A stretch of 64,000 nucleotides of DNA, taken from Gymnodinialimonas sp. 202GB13-11 (lineage in GTDB: Bacteria; Pseudomonadota; Alphaproteobacteria; Rhodobacterales; Rhodobacteraceae). A program made the position numbers and the translations under genes. Every line of letters starts with the position of its first letter. Positions within the stretch are counted from its first letter, which is position 1. Shown here in pieces: positions 5,033-13,482 of this stretch. The stretch is from the NCBI RefSeq assembly GCF_040932485.1, contig NZ_JBFRBH010000001.1, positions 1,054,001 through 1,118,000 on the forward strand, read 5' to 3'. The notes beneath the pieces were generated by a model. The model searched no databases. It was not told where the DNA came from and saw only the letters and a program-made list of their open reading frames with translations.

Positions 5033-5108
5033 GCCCCTATAGCTCAGCTGGTAGAGCAACTGATTTGTAATCAGTAGGTCCGCGGTTCGAGTCCGTGTGG
5101 GGGCACCA
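5033..5108 (+). tRNA. tRNA-Thr (anticodon TGT)
   Basis: A 76-base cloverleaf including an encoded CCA. The acceptor stem is GCCCCTA/TGGGGGC, the D-arm GCTC...GAGC, the anticodon stem ACTGA/TCAGT with loop TTTGTAA (anticodon TGT, reads ACA) and the T-arm CGCGG-TTCGAGT-CCGTG. All stems pair, with two G-T pairs. The 3' part from the anticodon loop onward is the crossover target of the element that follows. The copy here is whole because the element restores the 3' half. Confidence 0.98.
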
Positions 5109-5111
5109 TTT
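5064..5111 (+). repeat. attL: 48-bp direct repeat within tRNA-Thr
   Basis: The 48 bases from the anticodon loop (tttgtaatcag) to just past the CCA end (caccattt) recur exactly at 13194-13241, 8130 bases away. Tyrosine integrases commonly recombine in the anticodon or T loop of a tRNA gene, and the element integrase lies just inside the other copy. This marks the left attachment site. Confidence 0.95.
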
Positions 5112-5474
5112 AATCCTTAAATATCAGCATGATGCACGGTTTGTGTGGTTTTGAGCGTCCTTCGTGTGCTCGTTTTGGAAGCGTAGTGGCAGCATCCGTT
5201 TCGCTTCTGTTCGTGCTCTCAGAGCAACATGCGGATTGCACGGAGGGAGTCGCACCGTGTGCAAAGGCAGTCCGCACCTACCCTCGCTTCGCTCGGCGCG
5301 TCTATCGCGCAGGATGTCGGCCTACCGGCAAGCGCCGCACCAAAGGTCACCCCCGAGGGGGCCATTCGCCATGGCCCCCTTCTCGATCCCCCTAGGCACT
5401 GCCCGATAGGACGGGGGGAGGGGAACGGCCCAAAGCGGACGCCAAGGAAGGGTTTGGTGCTGCATCGCAGCTTT
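5112..5474. other. GC-rich left arm of the element, no clear gene
   Basis: I find no convincing coding region here; short frames overlap on both strands without family features. The stretch is GC-rich, unlike the AT-rich DNA to its right. It holds a strong perfect hairpin at 5357-5379 (9-bp stem GGGGGCCAT/ATGGCCCCC, 5-base loop) followed by TTCTC. It could contain the replication origin or transfer site used by the element's Rep protein, or just the end of a former gene. Confidence 0.5.
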
Positions 5475-5741
5475 CTAAAAGGGGACATCGACACATAGTG
5501 GTTTCGGCCTGCAAACAACGTACGGTAGTTGAAGGAGGTCTGAGAACGAAGCAACGCTTTCTTCTGTCCACGTTGCCGTTCCATCATTTGAAGTAGTTGG
5601 CGCGAAGCGAATTCCGATAACTTCGCCACCCTCATTCAAGATCGGAGCCCCTACAGAACTGAGCGAGGTGTTAGCGTCGTGCATAATCCTTCCGCGAAGC
5701 CCTGTCAGATGCTCTTCTAATCTACCATTTTTTTCTATTTT
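5475..5741 (-). pseudogene. Fragment resembling a trypsin-like serine protease C-terminus
   Basis: The minus-strand frame between the stop at 5742-5744 and its end at 5475 encodes a peptide containing LTGLRGRIMHDANTSLSS and then VGAPILNEGGEVIGIRFAP. The second piece is like the nucleophile region of trypsin-like peptidases, where a G-x-S-G-x-P box is followed by N-x-x-G-E-V-[IV]-G-I. Here the box is irregular (SSVGAP), and the frame is closed upstream, so His and Asp regions are missing. There is no good start or ribosome site except an ATG at 5684. I call it a decayed fragment; it could be a short unrelated gene. Confidence 0.35.
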
Positions 5742-5998: not shown

Positions 5999-8900
5999 TC
6001 ACAAGCCAAGGCGGGCATCCCAATCGATTGGCCTCTGCCGCCAGGAGAACGGGTCATAGCACTCGAGTTTGGCAACATCGTCCCAAAGCGCTTGGCACTC
6101 TTCAAGAGGCTGTTCGTTCTTAGCCAAAAGCGGTTCCGGCATTGTTTTACGCAATTCAGCAAAAATATCGTTCATTTCCTTATAGTACTGATCCGCTGAA
6201 AGTGCGGCAGCCGTCAAAGTGAAGTAGGCAACTCGGTTGAAGTTAACATCATTCTCCCAATCACTAGGGGCATTTATGAAAAAGTCCGCAACCTTACTTC
6301 CAGGCAGCAAATAAAGATTGCCAAGCGTTATAACGGCCTGAAAGGCTTCGAGCCCTTCTGTATCCGCATGATTCTTACCACGAGGTGCGAGGACAGAAAC
6401 AGAGCGCGTCATCCCTATTCGGCGGCGGCCGGAACTATCCTCCATGTGCCGATAAAAGTCGAAGTCTTGATACCCATCAAGTTCCATAAGCGACGAAAAA
6501 ACCTGCTCTTGCGAAAACCACCTCTCCTTTTTCTTTGACCATTTGACATCCAGCCTTCGCTCTTGAATATGCCCACGGAAGTGAGAAATATCGAATAGAG
6601 ATTGAACGATATCTCTGCAAACTGGCGTGTTAGCGTTGGGGACGACTAGAAGATCATTAAGTGAGTTTTCATTGTCGCCGTAAACTAACTCAAGTAGGTC
6701 CAATCTGGAGACTTCTCGCTTTGCCTCTCGAATGAACTGCTCCGTCGAAGTAAGGAGCATGGAGTCGACCATCCAAAAACCTTCTCGCTTCAACAATTCA
6801 TCTGCGGAGCAAGAACTGCGTTTGCCAGATTCTTCGATCAAGAACATCTTGGTTCTGTTGAGCTCGGCCTCCTTCACTGCTTCAGTCTTTTTGGACTCCG
6901 AAGCGCCCCGCCCGGCAACGATTGGGTGCATCATTCGCGGCATTTGCTCGACGGCCCAAGTCAAAGAATAGTCTTCGTCATCGACCAAACGCTTTGTCTC
7001 AGTCTCCACGACGCTCAGCAAAAGGCGATTGATTGTTTGGACGGCCGTATCAAACTCGTCAGTTGTTTCCAATGCCGACCGTGCAACGTTCGTTTTGGGA
7101 GCTTCCTTACCAGTCATGTTGACAACTGCCAGGAGCGTACGATCAATTCCGCCGACCAATTGATTTTGGACAACGATACCCTCTACGCAAGTCATGATTG
7201 GCGGCAGCTTATCTTGACTTTGCTTAAGTGGTGAGCGTTCCGGGACTCGGATGAACTGCCAATCCTTGTAGTGAGAGCTATACGACATAGCGTATGCAAT
7301 GGTTATGCCATTAGAGGATTTCTCTCGCACCTCGACCCGTTCTTCGGCATATCTTGCAACCGTGGTTTCCTTGTTTAAGTAGTCAGTCAGAGCATCCTTT
7401 GGCGTGGCGAAGCCAATTCGATCCGGATCAGCTCCATCAACTGACAAAGTCACCGAACATCTGGGAAAAAGAACATACGTTTCCAAAGTTCTCTGGATAT
7501 TCATTTTCTGAGCAGATGCTCTGAAGCGAAGCACGAATTTACTGCCATGAGAACCAATTTCGTTGGCCACTTCATCCGATGACTTGTCTATCAGCTTGAT
7601 CAGATACTTGCCGTGTACTGACCTCAATGAAATCTTACGTGCTTTTTCATCATCTGGGCTAACAGTAATTATTTCAACCTTGTCCGCGACCATGAAAGCA
7701 GTCAAGACACCAATGCCAAAGCGACTAATTGGCGTGAAGTTTGGAAACTCTTCCTTGAATTTAGGATCTTGATACTTCGAAGAACCAACTTTCAAAAGGT
7801 GGTTCTCAATCGTTGCCTGAGACATCCCCGTCCCATTATCGATTATGGTGAGCTCGCTTGTCTCGCTAGACCAGAAAACATGGATCTTGCCTTTTTCTTC
7901 CGAACCCTCTTTTTGATCATGGTACTTGAGCCTCACTGCATCTATCGCATTCTGCGTCAGCTCACGGACAACCACGCTGCTGTCATTGTACAAGGTGTGG
8001 CCGGTAAGAAGATCTAGAATCTTTTCTTGATCTATCTCGAACCCAAATGGCTCCTGCTCAAAGCCTGCCGCCTTTACGTGAGTGTCATCAATACGCCGCC
8101 ATGGAAAAAGATACTCTTTTGGAGCTGTGGCTTTCGTTCGTTCGATGGCATCAAAAGTACTTTTAATTTGATCATTGGCATAGCGAAGATAGGCGTTGAG
8201 CCCAAAAAAACTTGCCTCCTCGTTGAACCTAGCAAAGACCTCGATTGTATCAGGTTGTTTTGAGGAAAGAATAGCGCCGTCGTCGTCAAGTTGCTTCTGC
8301 GGGCGCACACTTTTTACAGCATTTTGTTTTGCCCATTCAAGCTGACTGATTGGATCAGCTGGGTCAATGAGTCTATAAAGAGCCGACGGAGCGCGCCTTT
8401 CTGTGATTTGAATCAAGTCGATAGTGCGTAGCAATGCGGCAATATATTGTAAGTTCACTTCTTCTGAAGCTGTATTTCCATAAGGATGATCCTGGCGATA
8501 TTTCTTTGTATCTTCGATATCATCAAGATTATGGCTCTCGCACACCTGCGCTAGATCAATGCGAAATTCCTCACCGAGCGGCGCCAATAATTCTTCAACC
8601 AACTGGACCTGAGCTTTGCAATAGCCAAGTTCGGAGCATGTATCGCCAGCAAGCCATACTTTAATGCGTGTAGCGTGATGATATCGTACAAATTCCTGGT
8701 AAAGCAGACGATCGCGTACTTCAGCATCAAGGCCTTCCAATTTCGCCTGATAGTCTCCGCCTCCGTCGCCGCTAAACAATTGATCACGACAGAAACTATC
8801 GAAGGTGGTCTTCGAGCGGTTTTTGAACTCATCCTCCGTAACGACAAGGCCCATGTCGTGAAAATAGATGCTGAGTACCAACATCAACCAGTCTCCATCT

Positions 8901-9124
8901 GACATGATATCTTTGGTATTGTTGGGAATTACCCAGTCAACTGTCGCAAGCATATCGTCAATATGAGAGATATCGTGTGTAGTATACTCCTTGAATATCA
9001 AATTCGCCCCAAAAGTAGACAAGATATCCTTCACAACCCGCCGAACTTCGGGGAGATTTACTGGAAATGCTGAAAGCTTCGTGGCTTTTTCTGCTCTTTT
9101 TTCTGCATCAAACTCTAAGGACAT
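5999..9124 (-). CDS. HD-domain/HSP90-like GHKL ATPase fusion protein (candidate defence protein)
   Basis: A 1041-residue two-enzyme protein. Residues about 45-245 form an HD phosphohydrolase-like domain with H50/H54, H89-D90, HH149-150 and a late LLRTID aspartate near 236. Residues about 360-560 form a GHKL ATPase of the HSP90 type: N box RELTQNAIDA (387-396), G1 box DNGTGMS (429-435) and lid/G2 box SRFGIGVLTAF near 467-477. The remaining 480 residues resemble no domain I know but follow the HSP90-like order. I chose the ATG at 9124 (GGTGAG upstream) rather than the longer frame to 9232. The gene is strikingly AT-rich against its neighbours. HD plus HSP90-like ATPases are reported in NTP-dependent conflict systems of bacteria. 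A role in sensing phage or stress, with the HD domain as a nucleotide-acting effector, is inference. Confidence 0.85.
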   Translation of the reverse strand: MSLEFDAEKRAEKATKLSAFPVNLPEVRRVVKDILSTFGANLIFKEYTTHDISHIDDMLATVDWVIPNNTKDIMSDGDWLMLVLSIYFHDMGLVVTEDEFKNRSKTTFDSFCRDQLFSGDGGGDYQAKLEGLDAEVRDRLLYQEFVRYHHATRIKVWLAGDTCSELGYCKAQVQLVEELLAPLGEEFRIDLAQVCESHNLDDIEDTKKYRQDHPYGNTASEEVNLQYIAALLRTIDLIQITERRAPSALYRLIDPADPISQLEWAKQNAVKSVRPQKQLDDDGAILSSKQPDTIEVFARFNEEASFFGLNAYLRYANDQIKSTFDAIERTKATAPKEYLFPWRRIDDTHVKAAGFEQEPFGFEIDQEKILDLLTGHTLYNDSSVVVRELTQNAIDAVRLKYHDQKEGSEEKGKIHVFWSSETSELTIIDNGTGMSQATIENHLLKVGSSKYQDPKFKEEFPNFTPISRFGIGVLTAFMVADKVEIITVSPDDEKARKISLRSVHGKYLIKLIDKSSDEVANEIGSHGSKFVLRFRASAQKMNIQRTLETYVLFPRCSVTLSVDGADPDRIGFATPKDALTDYLNKETTVARYAEERVEVREKSSNGITIAYAMSYSSHYKDWQFIRVPERSPLKQSQDKLPPIMTCVEGIVVQNQLVGGIDRTLLAVVNMTGKEAPKTNVARSALETTDEFDTAVQTINRLLLSVVETETKRLVDDEDYSLTWAVEQMPRMMHPIVAGRGASESKKTEAVKEAELNRTKMFLIEESGKRSSCSADELLKREGFWMVDSMLLTSTEQFIREAKREVSRLDLLELVYGDNENSLNDLLVVPNANTPVCRDIVQSLFDISHFRGHIQERRLDVKWSKKKERWFSQEQVFSSLMELDGYQDFDFYRHMEDSSGRRRIGMTRSVSVLAPRGKNHADTEGLEAFQAVITLGNLYLLPGSKVADFFINAPSDWENDVNFNRVAYFTLTAAALSADQYYKEMNDIFAELRKTMPEPLLAKNEQPLEECQALWDDVAKLECYDPFSWRQRPIDWDARLGL

Positions 9125-9413
9125 TCGGTTCTCACCAACTTGATTTGTAGGATATACACGCTTGATCTCGACGATAGAATAACCGCTTCGGAGAACGCAA
9201 CCAAGACGGTTGCTACAAGGACGGCCTAACACTTCTTCCGAGTATGAGCACGACGTGCATATTGTAGCTTTTTGAGCAGAAACGGTTCACGCCATCGGCT
9301 TTCCGCCGGACTTGCTGACGACGATAATATCAATGTGACATTCAGACAAATGTCCGCTTGTGTACCTCGGTACTTGTTGTTTCGCAGGTGCGGCCAATGA
9401 CTGTTTGCGGCCC
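9125..9413. other. Promoter-bearing gap upstream of the HD/ATPase gene
   Basis: This 289-base gap separates two minus-strand genes and must hold the promoter of the large cargo gene. I found no gene and no confident promoter boxes. Base composition changes here from AT-rich on the cargo side to GC-rich on the rep side, which marks the border of the cargo module. Confidence 0.4.
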
Positions 9414-10568
9414 TCAGTCTCCGACCAAGACGCCATACTTTTCGGCGGCTTCACTTAAGCGAGTGCCTAAGTCCCGTCTATGTTGCTCCAGAAAGAACTC
9501 AACGCGGCCTGGCATGTTCTCTAGGAACTCCGGCACATCGGCTTCTGTGACGCCTTCTAAGTAAGCCAGCGTCACGCTGTGTGCGGCGACCAAATTGAGG
9601 AACTCGAGCTGCTTTTGTTTGAGATCCGCGTCGTGAACGAACTCCGGCGCCACTCTCACCTCATGGGCGAACAGACCCTGCTTGGTTGCGCCCGCCACCG
9701 TTGTCCAAAGCGGATGCCAGGGCCAGCGGGCGCGGTTTGTGTCGGCGGTTGGGACGTGTAGCGACACATCTTCCGCCAGTTTGATCATCTCTGCTTCTAG
9801 CTCTTCATAGAAGGATACCCAGCCTCGTATGGAGGTCCTGTTGCGTAGGGCGGTCTTTCCCAGGCGCAGTTCTACCCGCCAGACCTGGCTGTTTTCGCGT
9901 TGTGTCGTGTCGAGTGGGGCAAGGCCGAGGCGCTTTGCGGCCTCATTCCAGATCAGTGGCCATTCGTGTTTGTGCTTCTGCAAAACCTCTTCGCGCTTGT
10001 CGTAGACGATCACCTGGCGACCGGGCATCTTACCAAGGGTCACAGAGGTCACGCGCCCAGAGTGGGAATGGATGCTGACTTCTGCCAAATCCGCGTGGGT
10101 TTTCAGCTTCATCCGAGAGTGGACGACGAAGGAATTGGGGTCGAGCGTAAAGTCTGGGTCGAGAATGTCGATGGCATAGTCAACCCGGCTAACGCTGATG
10201 CCATCGGGTGTAATGCGGAAGCCTAGCTTGTCGCATGTGGCCTCAAGATCCTGACGCACTTTTTCGAGGCCGTGCAACGCAAGGGCGCGAGATCTGATGG
10301 ACACATGAATGCCCCAAGGGTCGGAGGCTTTAGGTTTCTTCACCGCCCAGATCGCGCCTTCCGGGCCAGTGTGGAACGTGTAGGCATAGCCGCCCCTGCG
10401 CCCCGATCCGCCAATGTAGAGTTTGACGCCGTTGAATACGGTACGGGCGTCACATTGGTACTCAGACGCGAAGGCTTTTCCCGCTTCCAATTCTTCAACC
10501 AGCCTGGGCGGGGCGTGTGTCTTGATGGCGAGGTCGAGCCCGTCAAAGCCGGAGTAGAGAACGTGCAT
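9414..10568 (-). CDS. Replication initiation factor, Rep_trans-like
   Basis: A 384-residue protein with the three conserved blocks I associate with the Rep_trans family of rolling-circle initiators and MobT-like relaxases. They are RVDYAID near residue 127-133, VYDKREEV near 186 (candidate catalytic Tyr) and WRVELRLGK near 230. Such proteins nick a double-strand origin and start rolling-circle replication of phages, plasmids or integrative elements. The start ATG at 10568 has GGAG about 9 bases upstream. It lies directly downstream of the AlpA-like gene on the same strand, with hairpins between them. No host-type replication gene accompanies it, so the host or a helper would supply polymerase and helicase. 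The family call is by motif only. Confidence 0.72.
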   Translation of the reverse strand: MHVLYSGFDGLDLAIKTHAPPRLVEELEAGKAFASEYQCDARTVFNGVKLYIGGSGRRGGYAYTFHTGPEGAIWAVKKPKASDPWGIHVSIRSRALALHGLEKVRQDLEATCDKLGFRITPDGISVSRVDYAIDILDPDFTLDPNSFVVHSRMKLKTHADLAEVSIHSHSGRVTSVTLGKMPGRQVIVYDKREEVLQKHKHEWPLIWNEAAKRLGLAPLDTTQRENSQVWRVELRLGKTALRNRTSIRGWVSFYEELEAEMIKLAEDVSLHVPTADTNRARWPWHPLWTTVAGATKQGLFAHEVRVAPEFVHDADLKQKQLEFLNLVAAHSVTLAYLEGVTEADVPEFLENMPGRVEFFLEQHRRDLGTRLSEAAEKYGVLVGD

Positions 10569-10713: not shown

Positions 10714-10926
10714 TTAACGAGAGGTGCGGGAGACCCTTTGCCGTGCCACCCAAACGTTCACATCGTCGAGGCTGTAGCGCACTGACTGGCCGAATTTGTG
10801 AAAGCACGGCCCACAGCCCGTGAGCCGCCATTTCTGAATTGTGCGGGGCGATTGGCAGATCATGTCCGCCACTTGCAGTTCAGTCAGGAAAACTGAGTTT
10901 GAACGGGCACTGCTATGGTCTGCCAT
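10714..10926 (-). CDS. AlpA/excisionase-type helix-turn-helix protein
   Basis: A 70-residue DNA-binding protein. The core reads FLTELQVADMICQSPRTI, then QKWRLTGCGPCFHKFGQSV and RYSLDDVNVWVARQR. This is the winged MerR-like fold of AlpA and phage excisionases (helix, helix with W-R, then the wing G-x-x-V-R-Y and the D-V-x-x-W helix). Such proteins bind attachment sites to steer the integrase toward excision, or act as activators of element genes. The gene sits between the integrase module and the rep-like gene, as is usual in small integrative elements. Confidence 0.85.
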   Translation of the reverse strand: MADHSSARSNSVFLTELQVADMICQSPRTIQKWRLTGCGPCFHKFGQSVRYSLDDVNVWVARQRVSRTSR

Positions 10927-10983: not shown

Positions 10984-11823
10984 CTAGCGAGAACGCTCGG
11001 AATAATGCCTGATGAAATCTGGTAATTCTTCCAAGCTGCTGACTTTATATGATTTTCTTCGCGTTTCGGCAGAGCTGGAGACTATCCTGCTTGGGACCGT
11101 GCCCGTGTCGAACACCTCAACGACATCTACGCAAAAGCGCGCGGCCTCTGAGAGGGGTTCGTTCTTTTCGGTCCAAAGCAGTGAGCAGCGTTTCCCAGTG
11201 AAGTTCTCGTAGACCTGGAGGGCAATGGTCAGCAGGGGATCGAGGGTTGCGTTCTCGCGCCTGCCTTTCTTGCCTTTTCCTGCAACCCGCAGTGATACCT
11301 CCATCGCTTGGTCTAAGGCGTCGAGCGATGCCAACACATCGTCGAGGTCCAAAGGATCTGTATTTGGGCGCTCAAGAACTGCTTTCTGCCCGTTCCACGC
11401 AATCGTCGACGAAGGTTCCAGAGCCGTTTCGCCAATCATCTCCAGAAGCGAGGCGTTCGTCGCATGAGTCATTGCGATTGAAGCTTGGTTTGCGGCGTAG
11501 AGGTCTTCCTCGTCGAGGTCTCGCAGTGCTTTTTGTAGAGCGCGACCGTGTTTTTGAACGGTGGAGAGTTTCTGCCTCACCTTTGGAAGATCGGTGGCGG
11601 CCCATTTTGCTTCGGACTTTGATAAATGTGCCGCGACGTTAAGGAGCAATCGCGCCATGGCAAATGACTCTGGAATGAAGCCGTAGGTTTCTGCGATGGG
11701 CGCGAACACCTCGTCGGAGAATGGCTTGTGGTGGTCGAGACCGTTGGTGATCAATTGGCGTAGATCAATCCCGCTAGCCGCTAGGGCCTGCGTGGCATCA
11801 GCCAAGAACTGCTCTTCATCCAT
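10984..11823 (-). CDS. Protein of unknown function in the integrative element
   Basis: A 279-residue soluble, mainly helical protein. I do not recognise a family. The N-terminal half is acidic and helical; a basic patch GKGKKGRRE lies near residue 190. A conserved-looking stretch, DPLLTIALQVYENFTGK, follows with SEAARFCVDVVEVF after it; similar stretches occur in proteins beside integrases on other elements. It starts 10 bases after the integrase stop (11834), so the two are co-transcribed. It could be an integrase partner or a regulator of element maintenance, but nothing in the sequence settles this. Confidence 0.7.
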   Translation of the reverse strand: MDEEQFLADATQALAASGIDLRQLITNGLDHHKPFSDEVFAPIAETYGFIPESFAMARLLLNVAAHLSKSEAKWAATDLPKVRQKLSTVQKHGRALQKALRDLDEEDLYAANQASIAMTHATNASLLEMIGETALEPSSTIAWNGQKAVLERPNTDPLDLDDVLASLDALDQAMEVSLRVAGKGKKGRRENATLDPLLTIALQVYENFTGKRCSLLWTEKNEPLSEAARFCVDVVEVFDTGTVPSRIVSSSAETRRKSYKVSSLEELPDFIRHYSERSR

Positions 11824-11833
11824 ATGCTCGATC

Positions 11834-13024
11834 TCACTTAATCACGCGCAAGTGGCCTTGGCGCTCTTGTTTGGCGGTCTCAAGGCTATCAAATATTGCG
11901 GCGCTATTTTGCTCCGCAGCTGCCCGAATGGGATCATCTGCAAGATGGGCGTAGCGTAGGGTCGTTTGCAACTGAGTATGGCCCAACAATTGCCCGACCA
12001 TCTGGATTGGCATGCCGCCCGAGACGGCGACCGAGGCATATGTGTGGCGCAAGTCGTGGATGCGAACATCGTGAAGGCCCGCCAGATTGCGAATGCGCCG
12101 CCAGGGGTGCTGCAAGTCGGTAATGTGCGCGTTGGCGAACTTGCCTTCAATGATGAACGGATGGCCACTGGTGCGGGGCAAGGAGGCCAAAACCTCGCGG
12201 GCCGCATGGGGGAGGGGGACACAACGCTTGCCCACCTTGCTATCGGGCAACTCTAGGCCCCGGTCGGTGACATGCTCCCAACGCGCAGTCTGTATCTCGG
12301 ACAGGCGGCATCCCGTCAGGAGGAGGAGGCGGAAGGCGGCCACGACATGGGGCGTCTCAATCCGCTCTTCTTCGCATGTGGTCAGCACATCCCCGAGGGT
12401 TCTAAGCTCTTGCTGTGTCAGGAACCTCTCGCGGCGGTTCTCTTTGTACTTCGGCACATGTCGGCAAGGGTTCGTGCCGTCCGGGCGCAAGCCCCACATC
12501 TCGGCCATGTTGAACATCTTGGAAAGGACCGAGAGCATCCGGTTCGCCTGGATCGGTGTGGCCCGGTGGCGGTAATGCAGGTCGGCAATGTCTTTGCGCA
12601 TGACCTCTGACACTTTGAACGTGCCAATCGCGGGGCGGATCATTCGCCGAATGGTGGAACGGTAATCGCGCGCGGTGGACGACTTCACATGGACTGCGAC
12701 GTGCACCTGCAAGAACCGGTCGCAGAGGTCTGCGACAGTGGGGGCAATGCGGGCCAGGGCGATCTCTTCGACGGGATCATAGCCGCCCGCGACTTGACCC
12801 AGCATTTCACGGGCATGGTCTCGAGCCTGGTCCAAAGCTACGACACCCACCCGTCCCAATGACGACCGCCGGGTGCGCCGTCCCTTTCTGTATTGCACCT
12901 GAAACGTCTTGGTTCCGGACGGCATGACGCGAACACCAAATCCGACGACAACCGAGTCCCAGACGAAGTAGGACGACGCATCGGGTTTGAGAGCATCAAT
13001 GGTGCGTTTCGTCAGTTTTGGCAT
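11834..13024 (-). CDS. Tyrosine-type site-specific integrase
   Basis: A 396-residue phage-type integrase of the P4/DUF4102-like group that integrates at tRNA genes. The N-terminal arm-binding domain opens with PKLTKRTIDALKP and GFGVRVMPSGTKTF. A SAM-like core-binding domain covers about residues 105-195. The catalytic domain has R in TGCRLSEIQ (near 238), HDLRHTYAS (near 321) and the nucleophile in TLRYAHLAD (near 357), so the R-H-x-x-R-Y set is complete. The ATG at 13024 has a GGAG-type site upstream and matches the family start; the frame is open to 13126. It lies about 170 bases inside the right attachment repeat and is read away from it. It should carry out insertion at the tRNA-Thr site seen here. 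Confidence 0.95.
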   Translation of the reverse strand: MPKLTKRTIDALKPDASSYFVWDSVVVGFGVRVMPSGTKTFQVQYRKGRRTRRSSLGRVGVVALDQARDHAREMLGQVAGGYDPVEEIALARIAPTVADLCDRFLQVHVAVHVKSSTARDYRSTIRRMIRPAIGTFKVSEVMRKDIADLHYRHRATPIQANRMLSVLSKMFNMAEMWGLRPDGTNPCRHVPKYKENRRERFLTQQELRTLGDVLTTCEEERIETPHVVAAFRLLLLTGCRLSEIQTARWEHVTDRGLELPDSKVGKRCVPLPHAAREVLASLPRTSGHPFIIEGKFANAHITDLQHPWRRIRNLAGLHDVRIHDLRHTYASVAVSGGMPIQMVGQLLGHTQLQTTLRYAHLADDPIRAAAEQNSAAIFDSLETAKQERQGHLRVIK

Positions 13025-13193
13025 GCTCCAGACCTCGCCGAGTGCGCTTGTGTGTGGAAGCATAGTGGTCACAAGCGGTAGGAAATCGTGGAGTAAGGGG
13101 TAGGACTGTGGCGTTGCGCGCGTCAATATTAACGCAGCAAATACAGTAATTTAGCGTAGAGTAGGGTAGGGTGGCGTAACGGGTTGGGGTCGG
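13025..13193. promoter_or_regulatory. Right arm of the element with short G-rich repeats
   Basis: This 169-base stretch between the integrase start and attR holds the integrase promoter and probably the arm-type integrase sites. The direct repeats GTAGGA (13079-) and GTAGAGTAGGGTAGGG (13156-) and related AGTAAGGGGTAGG units recur. Such short repeats fit arm sites, but this is inference. Confidence 0.35.
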
Positions 13194-13241
13194 TTTGTAA
13201 TCAGTAGGTCCGCGGTTCGAGTCCGTGTGGGGGCACCATTT
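13194..13241 (+). repeat. attR: 48-bp copy of the tRNA-Thr 3' part
   Basis: An exact copy of 5064-5111, consisting of half the anticodon loop, the variable and T arms, the 3' acceptor strand, CCA and four more bases. It has no 5' half, so it is not a working tRNA gene. It marks the right end of the element. After both copies a short, imperfectly matching stretch continues (aaatatcag), hinting that host and element shared a slightly longer original match. Confidence 0.95.
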
Positions 13242-13482
13242 CTTCCCAAAATATCAGGTATGTGCCGCACGAAATCCTTCGGACAGGTTTCTTTGCGTGA
13301 TGACGACTCCAAAGCAGCCGCGTCGGGGGGGGCGCTTCGTGACTTGTCTGCAGGCGAGTCTAAACGCGAGGACTTTGCCGCAACCGGTGATTTGGGTATT
13401 GCTCCTTCGATCCAACCGCCGCTGAGCAAACTGCACGCACCCGCCACCCAAGCCAAACTCCCCGCCCACGAGATAATCTGAG
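13242..13482. other. Chromosomal gap between attR and matB
   Basis: A 241-base stretch of host DNA that would have followed the tRNA gene before insertion. Short frames are present on both strands but none has a good start or family likeness. It must hold the promoter of the MatB gene; I could not mark it. Confidence 0.4.

Follow-up and report, generated by a model that had tools for sequence, protein, structure and literature searches.

The cargo protein and its conserved sites

The 64,000-nucleotide stretch of the Gymnodinialimonas sp. 202GB13-11 genome analysed here (the window; contig NZ_JBFRBH010000001.1, positions 1,054,001 to 1,118,000) contains a small element integrated at a tRNA-Thr gene. 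Its one cargo gene encodes a protein (P0001) that joins an N-terminal HD-CE domain to an Hsp90-type ATPase of the GHKL class, and which we consider a candidate conflict system. The gene and the parts of its product, in window coordinates, are:

5999..9124, minus strand: HD-CE plus Hsp90-like ATPase cargo gene (ATG start, 1041 aa, P0001)
8162..8995, minus strand: HD-CE domain, residues 44-321 (Pfam PF24391 and invariant residues)
7505..8062, minus strand: Hsp90-type GHKL ATPase domain, residues 355-540 (Pfam; invariant motifs; hhalign to HtpG, 99.6-99.8%)
7025..7504, minus strand: residues 541-700, perhaps Hsp90-middle-domain-like (fold and profile alignments for; hhalign of residues 541-1041 alone against)
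6002..7024, minus strand: residues 701-1041, the fastest-changing part and a candidate sensor (fall in regional identity)

An upstream GTG at 9232 would lengthen the protein by 36 aa; its relatives begin at or near the ATG. Two Pfam families match above their cut-offs, namely HD-CE on residues 44-321 (E 6.9e-51; 173.9 bits against a cut-off of 27; positions 1-262 of the 263 in the model) and HATPase_c_3 on residues 382-523 (E 7.8e-12; 45.8 bits against 25). Profile searches against HD, HATPase and defence families had been proposed together with an initial annotation of the gene; PADLOC has no model for the protein. The HD metal-site motif is complete (H50, H54, H89, D90, H150, H198 and D236), and the ATP site comprises an N box (R387, E388, Q391 and N392) followed by D429, G431 and G433 and by G470 and G472. 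All the motifs named in the initial annotation (H50/H54, H89-D90, D236, E388/N392, DNGTGM and RFGIGV) are present in the translation of the open reading frame (ORF); its list for the HD site named the right residues and missed H150, H198, R147 and R244.

Relatives were gathered from IMG/VR (24 loci out of 209 pattern matches) and from GTDB contigs (133 pattern matches with a two-sequence alignment as the query, yielding 8 relatives at 32-47% identity). We aligned P0001 with 18 of the 24 IMG/VR loci (without L063, L065, L074 and L078-L080) and all 8 GTDB relatives, giving 27 rows, 25 of which were used for the HD site; L070 and L087 were dropped, most of the domain being missing in both. Residues H50, H54, H89, D90, R147, H150, H198, D236 and R244 are invariant in all 25 aligned HD domains, P0001 included, as are R387, E388, Q391, N392, D429, G433, G470 and G472 of the ATPase site in 11 of 11 aligned proteins. 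Such invariance among proteins that are otherwise 17-19% identical to P0001 in the latter alignment indicates strict constraint on both sites.

Beyond the two domains, conservation falls towards the C terminus. Mean identity to P0001 within its subfamily (7 relatives; 6 for residues 861-1041) is 52% in HD-CE and 61% in the ATPase domain, then 40% in residues 541-700, 27% in 701-860 and 17% in 861-1041. For L057, which is 58% identical to P0001 over residues 7-1034, the corresponding values from HD-CE to the tail are 70, 76, 62, 46 and 29%. Over 1029 codons, the P0001 and L057 genes have different bases at 36% of first, 24% of second and 64% of third codon positions, a pattern indicating that the protein is under selection. 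We infer that a tail diverging this fast beside constant enzyme domains may be the recognition part.

The AlphaFold2 model of P0001, built with 27 sequences, has a mean predicted local distance difference test score (pLDDT) of 82.4 and a predicted template modelling score (pTM) of 0.59. Structure prediction had also been proposed at the outset, and all 50 PDB fold matches listed for the whole-protein model are Hsp90s (best E 7.4e-17; TMt 0.51-0.56 for TRAP1 fragments). By sequence, the PDB entries that score best are ATPase domains of Hsp90s (E as low as 1.4e-13), and hhalign places the ATPase domain with HtpG at 99.6-99.8%. Fold alignments to Hsp90s extend over about 460-750 columns, and the sequence profile reaches HtpG 421 and GRP94 588-676. 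The initial annotation had left about 480 C-terminal residues unassigned. This still holds for residues 701-1041; alignments that begin within the ATPase extend as far as the Hsp90 middle domain, though residues 541-1041 alone are not matched to HtpG. Among viral models (BFVD), 16 of the 50 matches listed are named RIIA or 'protector', the others being Hsp90s, topoisomerases or unnamed; the RIIA likeness probably reflects a shared Hsp90 core.

Modelled alone, the HD domain reaches a pLDDT of 86.0 and a pTM of 0.89. The list of its fold matches is headed by class I phosphodiesterases (E 0.02 at best; TM 0.26-0.34 among the first five), with a Vibrio dGTPase lower, and the best match of its sequence profile in the PDB is E. 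coli YedJ (E 1.4e-5), followed by Lin1889 and BH2835 and then by phosphodiesterases. Class I cyclic-nucleotide phosphodiesterases have the ligand pattern HxxxH...HD...D, which P0001 contains as H50/H54/H89-D90/D236, alongside only the weak fold match (E 0.02). With low certainty, then, the HD domain may be a hydrolase of nucleotide-type phosphoesters. The initial wording, 'nuclease or nucleotidase', outran this evidence, which leans weakly, by sequence and fold, to nucleotidase- or phosphodiesterase-like sites.

A tRNA-Thr site used by different cargo

The direct repeats that bound the 8.1-kb element lie 8130 bases apart, and all five genes between them are on the minus strand. Besides the cargo gene, the element comprises:

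5033..5108, plus strand: tRNA-Thr(TGT), the integration target (ARAGORN)
5064..5127, plus strand: attL, the 3' part of the tRNA gene plus flank, a 64-nt direct repeat (94% identical to 13194-13257)
13194..13257, plus strand: attR, the second copy of the direct repeat (repeat match to 5064-5127)
9414..10568, minus strand: Rep_trans-like replication protein, backbone (PF02486, E 0.0068, under the cut-off; 50% identical homologue in a sister element)
10714..10926, minus strand: small helix-turn-helix protein that we take to be AlpA/excisionase-like, backbone (64% in the sister element)
10984..11823, minus strand: 279-aa protein, backbone (42% in the sister element; no Pfam match over cut-off)
11834..13126, minus strand: tyrosine integrase with Arm-DNA-bind_3, backbone (Pfam; 90% in the sister element)

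The cargo gene stands out in its base composition, as the initial description of an AT-rich gene implied: its GC content is 45-49%, that of the remaining element 54-61% and that of the flanking DNA, for the most part, about 60-64%. Between this gene and attL lies a degraded fragment (5478-5717, minus strand; SVGAPILNEGGEVIGIRFAPT), which reads like the end of what we take to be a trypsin-like protease and may be what is left of a former cargo gene.

We sought the tRNA gene with its upstream flank in 13 genomes of the genus, 12 of them besides the element's own, and found matches in 13 of 13. Eleven of the 12 congener regions were compared, G591 being left out with its matches on separate contigs. 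One of the 11 (L123) carries the same element at the same tRNA gene, with att copies at both ends; its integrase, Rep, AlpA-like and 279-aa proteins are 90%, 50%, 64% and 42% identical to those in the window. This sister element has no HD gene, and proteins of 504 and 165 aa stand in its place. The recurrence of the four non-HD genes beside other cargo marks them as backbone, which bears out the claim that the HD gene is the sole cargo. Neither replacement protein has a Pfam or PADLOC match at E <= 0.001. The larger (L123:6255-7769) contains an N-box-like stretch, TETLDNAERH, and on that motif may be another GHKL-type conflict protein.

Relatives of the HD protein were absent from the tRNA-Thr region in all 11 congeners at E <= 1e-4. 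In L119, the PADLOC candidate PDC-S37 (E 0) directly follows the tRNA gene, the matching protein also bearing DUF4011 and an MTES_1575 nuclease domain, and in L126 the R, S and M proteins of a type I restriction system start about 4 kb from it. The tRNA-Thr site is a hot spot for integration at which defence-type cargo is found, and the early suggestion that defence genes are swapped at this location agrees with the other cargo in L123, PDC-S37 in L119 and type I restriction in L126. The 1570-aa protein of L119 (L119:1320-6032) has a counterpart of the same length just past the tRNA-Thr gene of a second congener (L120:1332-6044).

Relatives in genomes, prophages and plasmids

Of 398 genomes of the phylum, 17 (among them the element's own) have an HD-CE match above the cut-off, as against 0 of 14 controls. 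We examined 17 HD-CE places outside the own genome, classing them by blastp to P0001, alignment and Pfam. In eight (L033-L040, with L036 leaving its contig and L037 cut short), HD-CE is followed by an Hsp90-type ATPase, and in two (L046 and L048) the ATPase is combined with iHD-CE, a name that we take to mean 'inactive' HD-CE. The remaining seven comprise one protein with WD40 (L044), two with TPR and nSTAND (L045 and L047), three short HD-CE-only proteins (L041-L043) and L049, which by its sequence is presumably Ppx/GppA-like. In the joined proteins with WD40 (L044:9024-12116) or TPR plus nSTAND (L045:9393-13277 and L047:7140-10979), the nSTAND NTPase is over its cut-off in L045 and under it in L047. 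Judged by these architectures, HD-CE would be the same effector placed under other sensors.

The subfamily of P0001 itself is rare and patchy: it occurs in 1 of 385 genomes of the class, yet also in Alphaproteobacteria, Lachnospiraceae and Ruminococcus. A subfamily profile at E <= 1e-30 found only the own genome among those 385, and a search of 198 genomes of the family with P0001 at E <= 1e-15 found, as the sole other match, a 205-residue ATPase piece in G100. A scan of genome contigs with P0001 alone returned no relative, and E. coli genomes searched with L075, L076 and L040 returned nothing. The GTDB relatives come from Methylobacterium, Bradyrhizobium (2), Azospirillum, a proteobacterial metagenome-assembled genome, Lachnospiraceae (2) and Ruminococcus. 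Two members of the subfamily lie close downstream of tRNA genes (tRNA-Met at L082:9652-9727; tRNA-Leu and tRNA-Ser at L088:8959-9172); by eye, no integrase was recognised near either. The initial annotation had held that homologues in conserved housekeeping operons would speak against a defence role, and no such operon was recognised around the relatives looked at.

Several relatives reside in prophages. The L057 gene is oriented opposite to all 10 of its neighbours, nine of which match PHROGs, including major head, portal, head-tail joining, terminase, minor tail, replication and integrase families. Three further records, G449, L075 and L076, were chosen for an ORF layout hinting at a P2-like arrangement; in each of the three, the HD-CE gene of a P2-like prophage is flanked by the Phage_GPA replication gene on one side and by the portal gene on the other. 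With equal spacing, G449 and L076 are probably the same phage, which leaves two distinct prophages. The gpA-portal gap, which we take to hold old and tin in P2, is presumably a known defence locus. Among the PHROG families listed at E <= 1e-10 (25 of 163), integrase (4) and repressor (3) are commonest, with terminase and portal at 2 or fewer each; this count covers 92 of 123 listed neighbours at 8 IMG/VR loci, leaving out L064, L069 and L076.

Plasmids also carry relatives: among the matches listed (40 of 276), 7 cover HD plus ATPase and 33 the ATPase part only. In favour of a conflict role, six of the seven have the following genes within 8 kb: TIR (Zymomonas), Shedu (Aliarcobacter), a UvrD helicase with an AAA ATPase and a recombinase (Pantoea), AbiEii with integrases (Hymenobacter), type I restriction (Priestia) and SIR2 (Lysinibacillus).

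A candidate conflict system and its alternatives

We think it somewhat probable that P0001 is a one-protein conflict system, directed against phages or other elements, in which an Hsp90-like clamp and a sensor tail gate a nucleotide-degrading HD enzyme. The protein would pair up as Hsp90 does, and its C-terminal part would recognise something made by the phage, or a host protein altered by infection, possibly in the manner of a 'client'. As the clamp closes, driven by ATP, the HD domains would be freed or aligned and would hydrolyse a free nucleotide or a nucleotide messenger; nucleotide loss would starve replication, and the infected cell would yield no phage. The Hsp90 module would here fill the role that STAND/NLR NTPases have in other systems. 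That a true Hsp90 chaperone cycle serves as the immune sensor, with the tail taking a phage or disturbed host client and clamp closure switching on a nucleotide-destroying HD domain, is a more tentative proposal that we regard as doubtful. If true, chaperone parts would here make up a counterpart of NLR/STAND receptors, one that small tRNA-integrated elements and prophages disseminate, the latter in the gpA-portal gap among other places. The initial model, in which a sensor or chaperone powered by ATP sets an HD enzyme free, fits the swapped cargo, the prophage carriage and the gpA-portal position; the enzyme's activity is predicted from sequence, and the enrichment control described below was negative.

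Several results weigh against the conflict-system reading. PADLOC has no model for P0001, matching it just weakly with REase_II (2.2e-4 and 0.017, in the ATPase part) and RTasSLATT (0.0054, residues 72-113). Neighbour enrichment was not clear either. Around seven of the eight sampled HD-CE plus ATPase relatives (all but L036, which stands at the end of a contig), 85 neighbours gave 74 PADLOC models, against 52 from 99 control ORFs (of 101 listed) in 8 control stretches of the same genomes, counting ORFs of at least 150 aa not touching a locus end. The neighbour models listed include Thoeris, Septu, Mokosh and AriA, and those of the controls type I restriction, NERD-UvrD, Gabija GajB and others. 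Given this negative control, the evidence from location rests on specific sites and not on statistics. One of the seven plasmid relatives, from Pseudoalteromonas, has ordinary genes and hypotheticals around it, and at least one Hsp90-type ATPase relative, of 779 aa (L070:9749-12088), has a frame too short for an HD domain. Against dimerisation in the manner of Hsp90, hhalign of residues 541-1041 alone with HtpG gave nothing clearly above shuffled columns, so that profile-profile comparison supports the ATPase domain only. As to the substrate, the HD-domain fold search of the PDB gave 0 matches at E <= 0.001. Finally, relaxed constraint would give the same pattern of divergence in the tail.

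Other explanations deserve weighing. An ATP-gated HD nuclease that cuts DNA or RNA, in the manner of Cas3/Cas10 HD domains or the VcSduA nuclease, is unlikely. The HD domains of CRISPR effectors are indeed nucleases, and VcSduA pairs a GHKL ATPase with a PD-(D/E)xK nuclease domain (PMC12137116). The closest PDB sequences to the HD domain, however, are YedJ-type HD hydrolases and class I phosphodiesterases, and there is no CRISPR nuclease among the 50 fold matches listed, both weak signals. Quite unlikely, too, is counter-defence on behalf of a mobile element, with the HD domain degrading the messengers of CBASS, Pycsar or Thoeris immunity and the ATPase regulating it. Carriage by prophages and an integrative element would suit this role, as would top fold matches to cyclic-nucleotide phosphodiesterases (E 0.02 and worse), but a 1041-aa ATP-driven machine is a costly build for a messenger cleaver. 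Moreover, the integration site is shared with defence-type genes, and HD-CE also joins nSTAND/TPR and WD40 modules, the usual build of invasion sensors.

The ATPase does belong to the Hsp90 family, which leaves a chaperone that serves the element or the cell, folding element proteins or a host client under an HD domain with a regulatory role. We hold this to be very unlikely: at 80.5 bits against 371 the protein is far below the HtpG cut-off, its gene is missing from the sister element with the same backbone and is rare and patchy, and the HD metal site is strictly conserved. Least credible is a stabilising role for the element, in which the protein acts as a toxin-like agent of addiction or growth arrest and is not aimed at phages. 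A single large cargo gene on a small element might be expected of it, and nucleotide-degrading effectors can be toxic, as with Clover CloA (PMC12265719); yet no antitoxin-like partner was recognised by eye in the element, and visual comparison of the ORF lists for 8 relatives showed no partner gene common to them.

The conflict-system reading makes the cargo protein a new member of a kind already predicted. Pfam already has HD-CE, iHD-CE and wHTH-HSP90_Na-assoc families, and Nicastro, Burroughs, Iyer and Aravind are said to have named HD-CE and predicted HSP90-coupled conflict systems in 2023 in Nucleic Acids Research (NAR), in agreement with the initial remark that such architectures had been proposed from genomics. 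P0001 is like the systems so defined in that an HSP90-type ATPase, its ATP motifs intact, comes after an N-terminal HD-CE, and in its setting in variable, mobile or defence-related loci, though the neighbour control was negative. Within this kind, its subfamily has a fast-changing C-terminal part of about 340 aa, and P0001 has 1041 aa against 829-980 in 13 of the 21 IMG/VR relatives measured. We know of no experimental test of the predicted class, and a literature search, with most subscription papers outside its reach, recognised no experiment on the HD-CE plus Hsp90 architecture. To our knowledge, the swapping of cargo at one tRNA gene, the gpA-portal position in P2-like prophages and the gradient of divergence towards the tail are new. 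Many immune systems switch through P-loop STAND ATPases, in whose place this protein seems to use an Hsp90 machine. Hsp90 is linked with receptors of innate immunity in both plants and animals (PMC12169576). If the prediction is right, whether an Hsp90 clamp can sense becomes a question for plating and enzyme assays. The tail, diverging far faster than the enzyme domains, is the place where the trigger should be read, and the relatives in the gpA-portal gap offer a second practical handle.

Among tested systems, VcSduA (paraMORC3, Shedu type I-D) is the closest precedent for an ATP-gated effector: like P0001 it holds a GHKL ATPase and an effector in one protein, and both the ATPase and a nuclease residue are needed for defence (PMC12137116). 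Its effector is a C-terminal PD-(D/E)xK nuclease (DUF4263), for which P0001 has no match at E <= 1. Clover illustrates that a nucleotide-destroying HD enzyme can be a defence effector and needs restraint (PMC12265719). Its CloA/SpdGTPase is an HD-superfamily anti-phage effector, as the HD domain of P0001 is predicted to be, and has its H126/E129 dyad at 9 and 12 residues beyond the HD-motif H117, where P0001 has D98 and K101; the passages on CloA describe no Hsp90 module. The ATPase domain of P0001 is homologous to that of HtpG/Hsp90 chaperones, to which P0001 adds an HD domain; no HtpG middle or C-terminal domain was found in comparing residues 541-1041 alone. Phage RIIA proteins have an Hsp90-type fold, as does P0001, and we know of no HD domain in them. 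In T4, rIIAB confers resistance to RexAB (PMC8594841).

Four identities were tried and rejected: plain HtpG (80.5 bits against an NCBIfam cut-off of 371; 96.4 against 455 for the HSP90 family PRK14083), a Shedu/MORC-type protein (no DUF4263), a CloA-type dGTPase (the HE dyad is missing) and a BbrUII/HgiDII-type restriction enzyme (47.2 of 550 bits, over the ATPase core only). The iHD-CE proteins L046 and L048 resemble P0001 in placing an HSP90-type ATPase beside an HD-CE-like domain, the ATPase being seen by blastp to P0001, with no Pfam ATPase match at E <= 0.01. They differ in that their HD-like domain scores better as iHD-CE (PF24401) and their C terminus is a wHTH-HSP90_Na-assoc domain (PF24410), P0001 matching neither family; at both loci (L046:8334-11717 and L048:7297-11076) about 170 further, unassigned residues stand at the N terminus.

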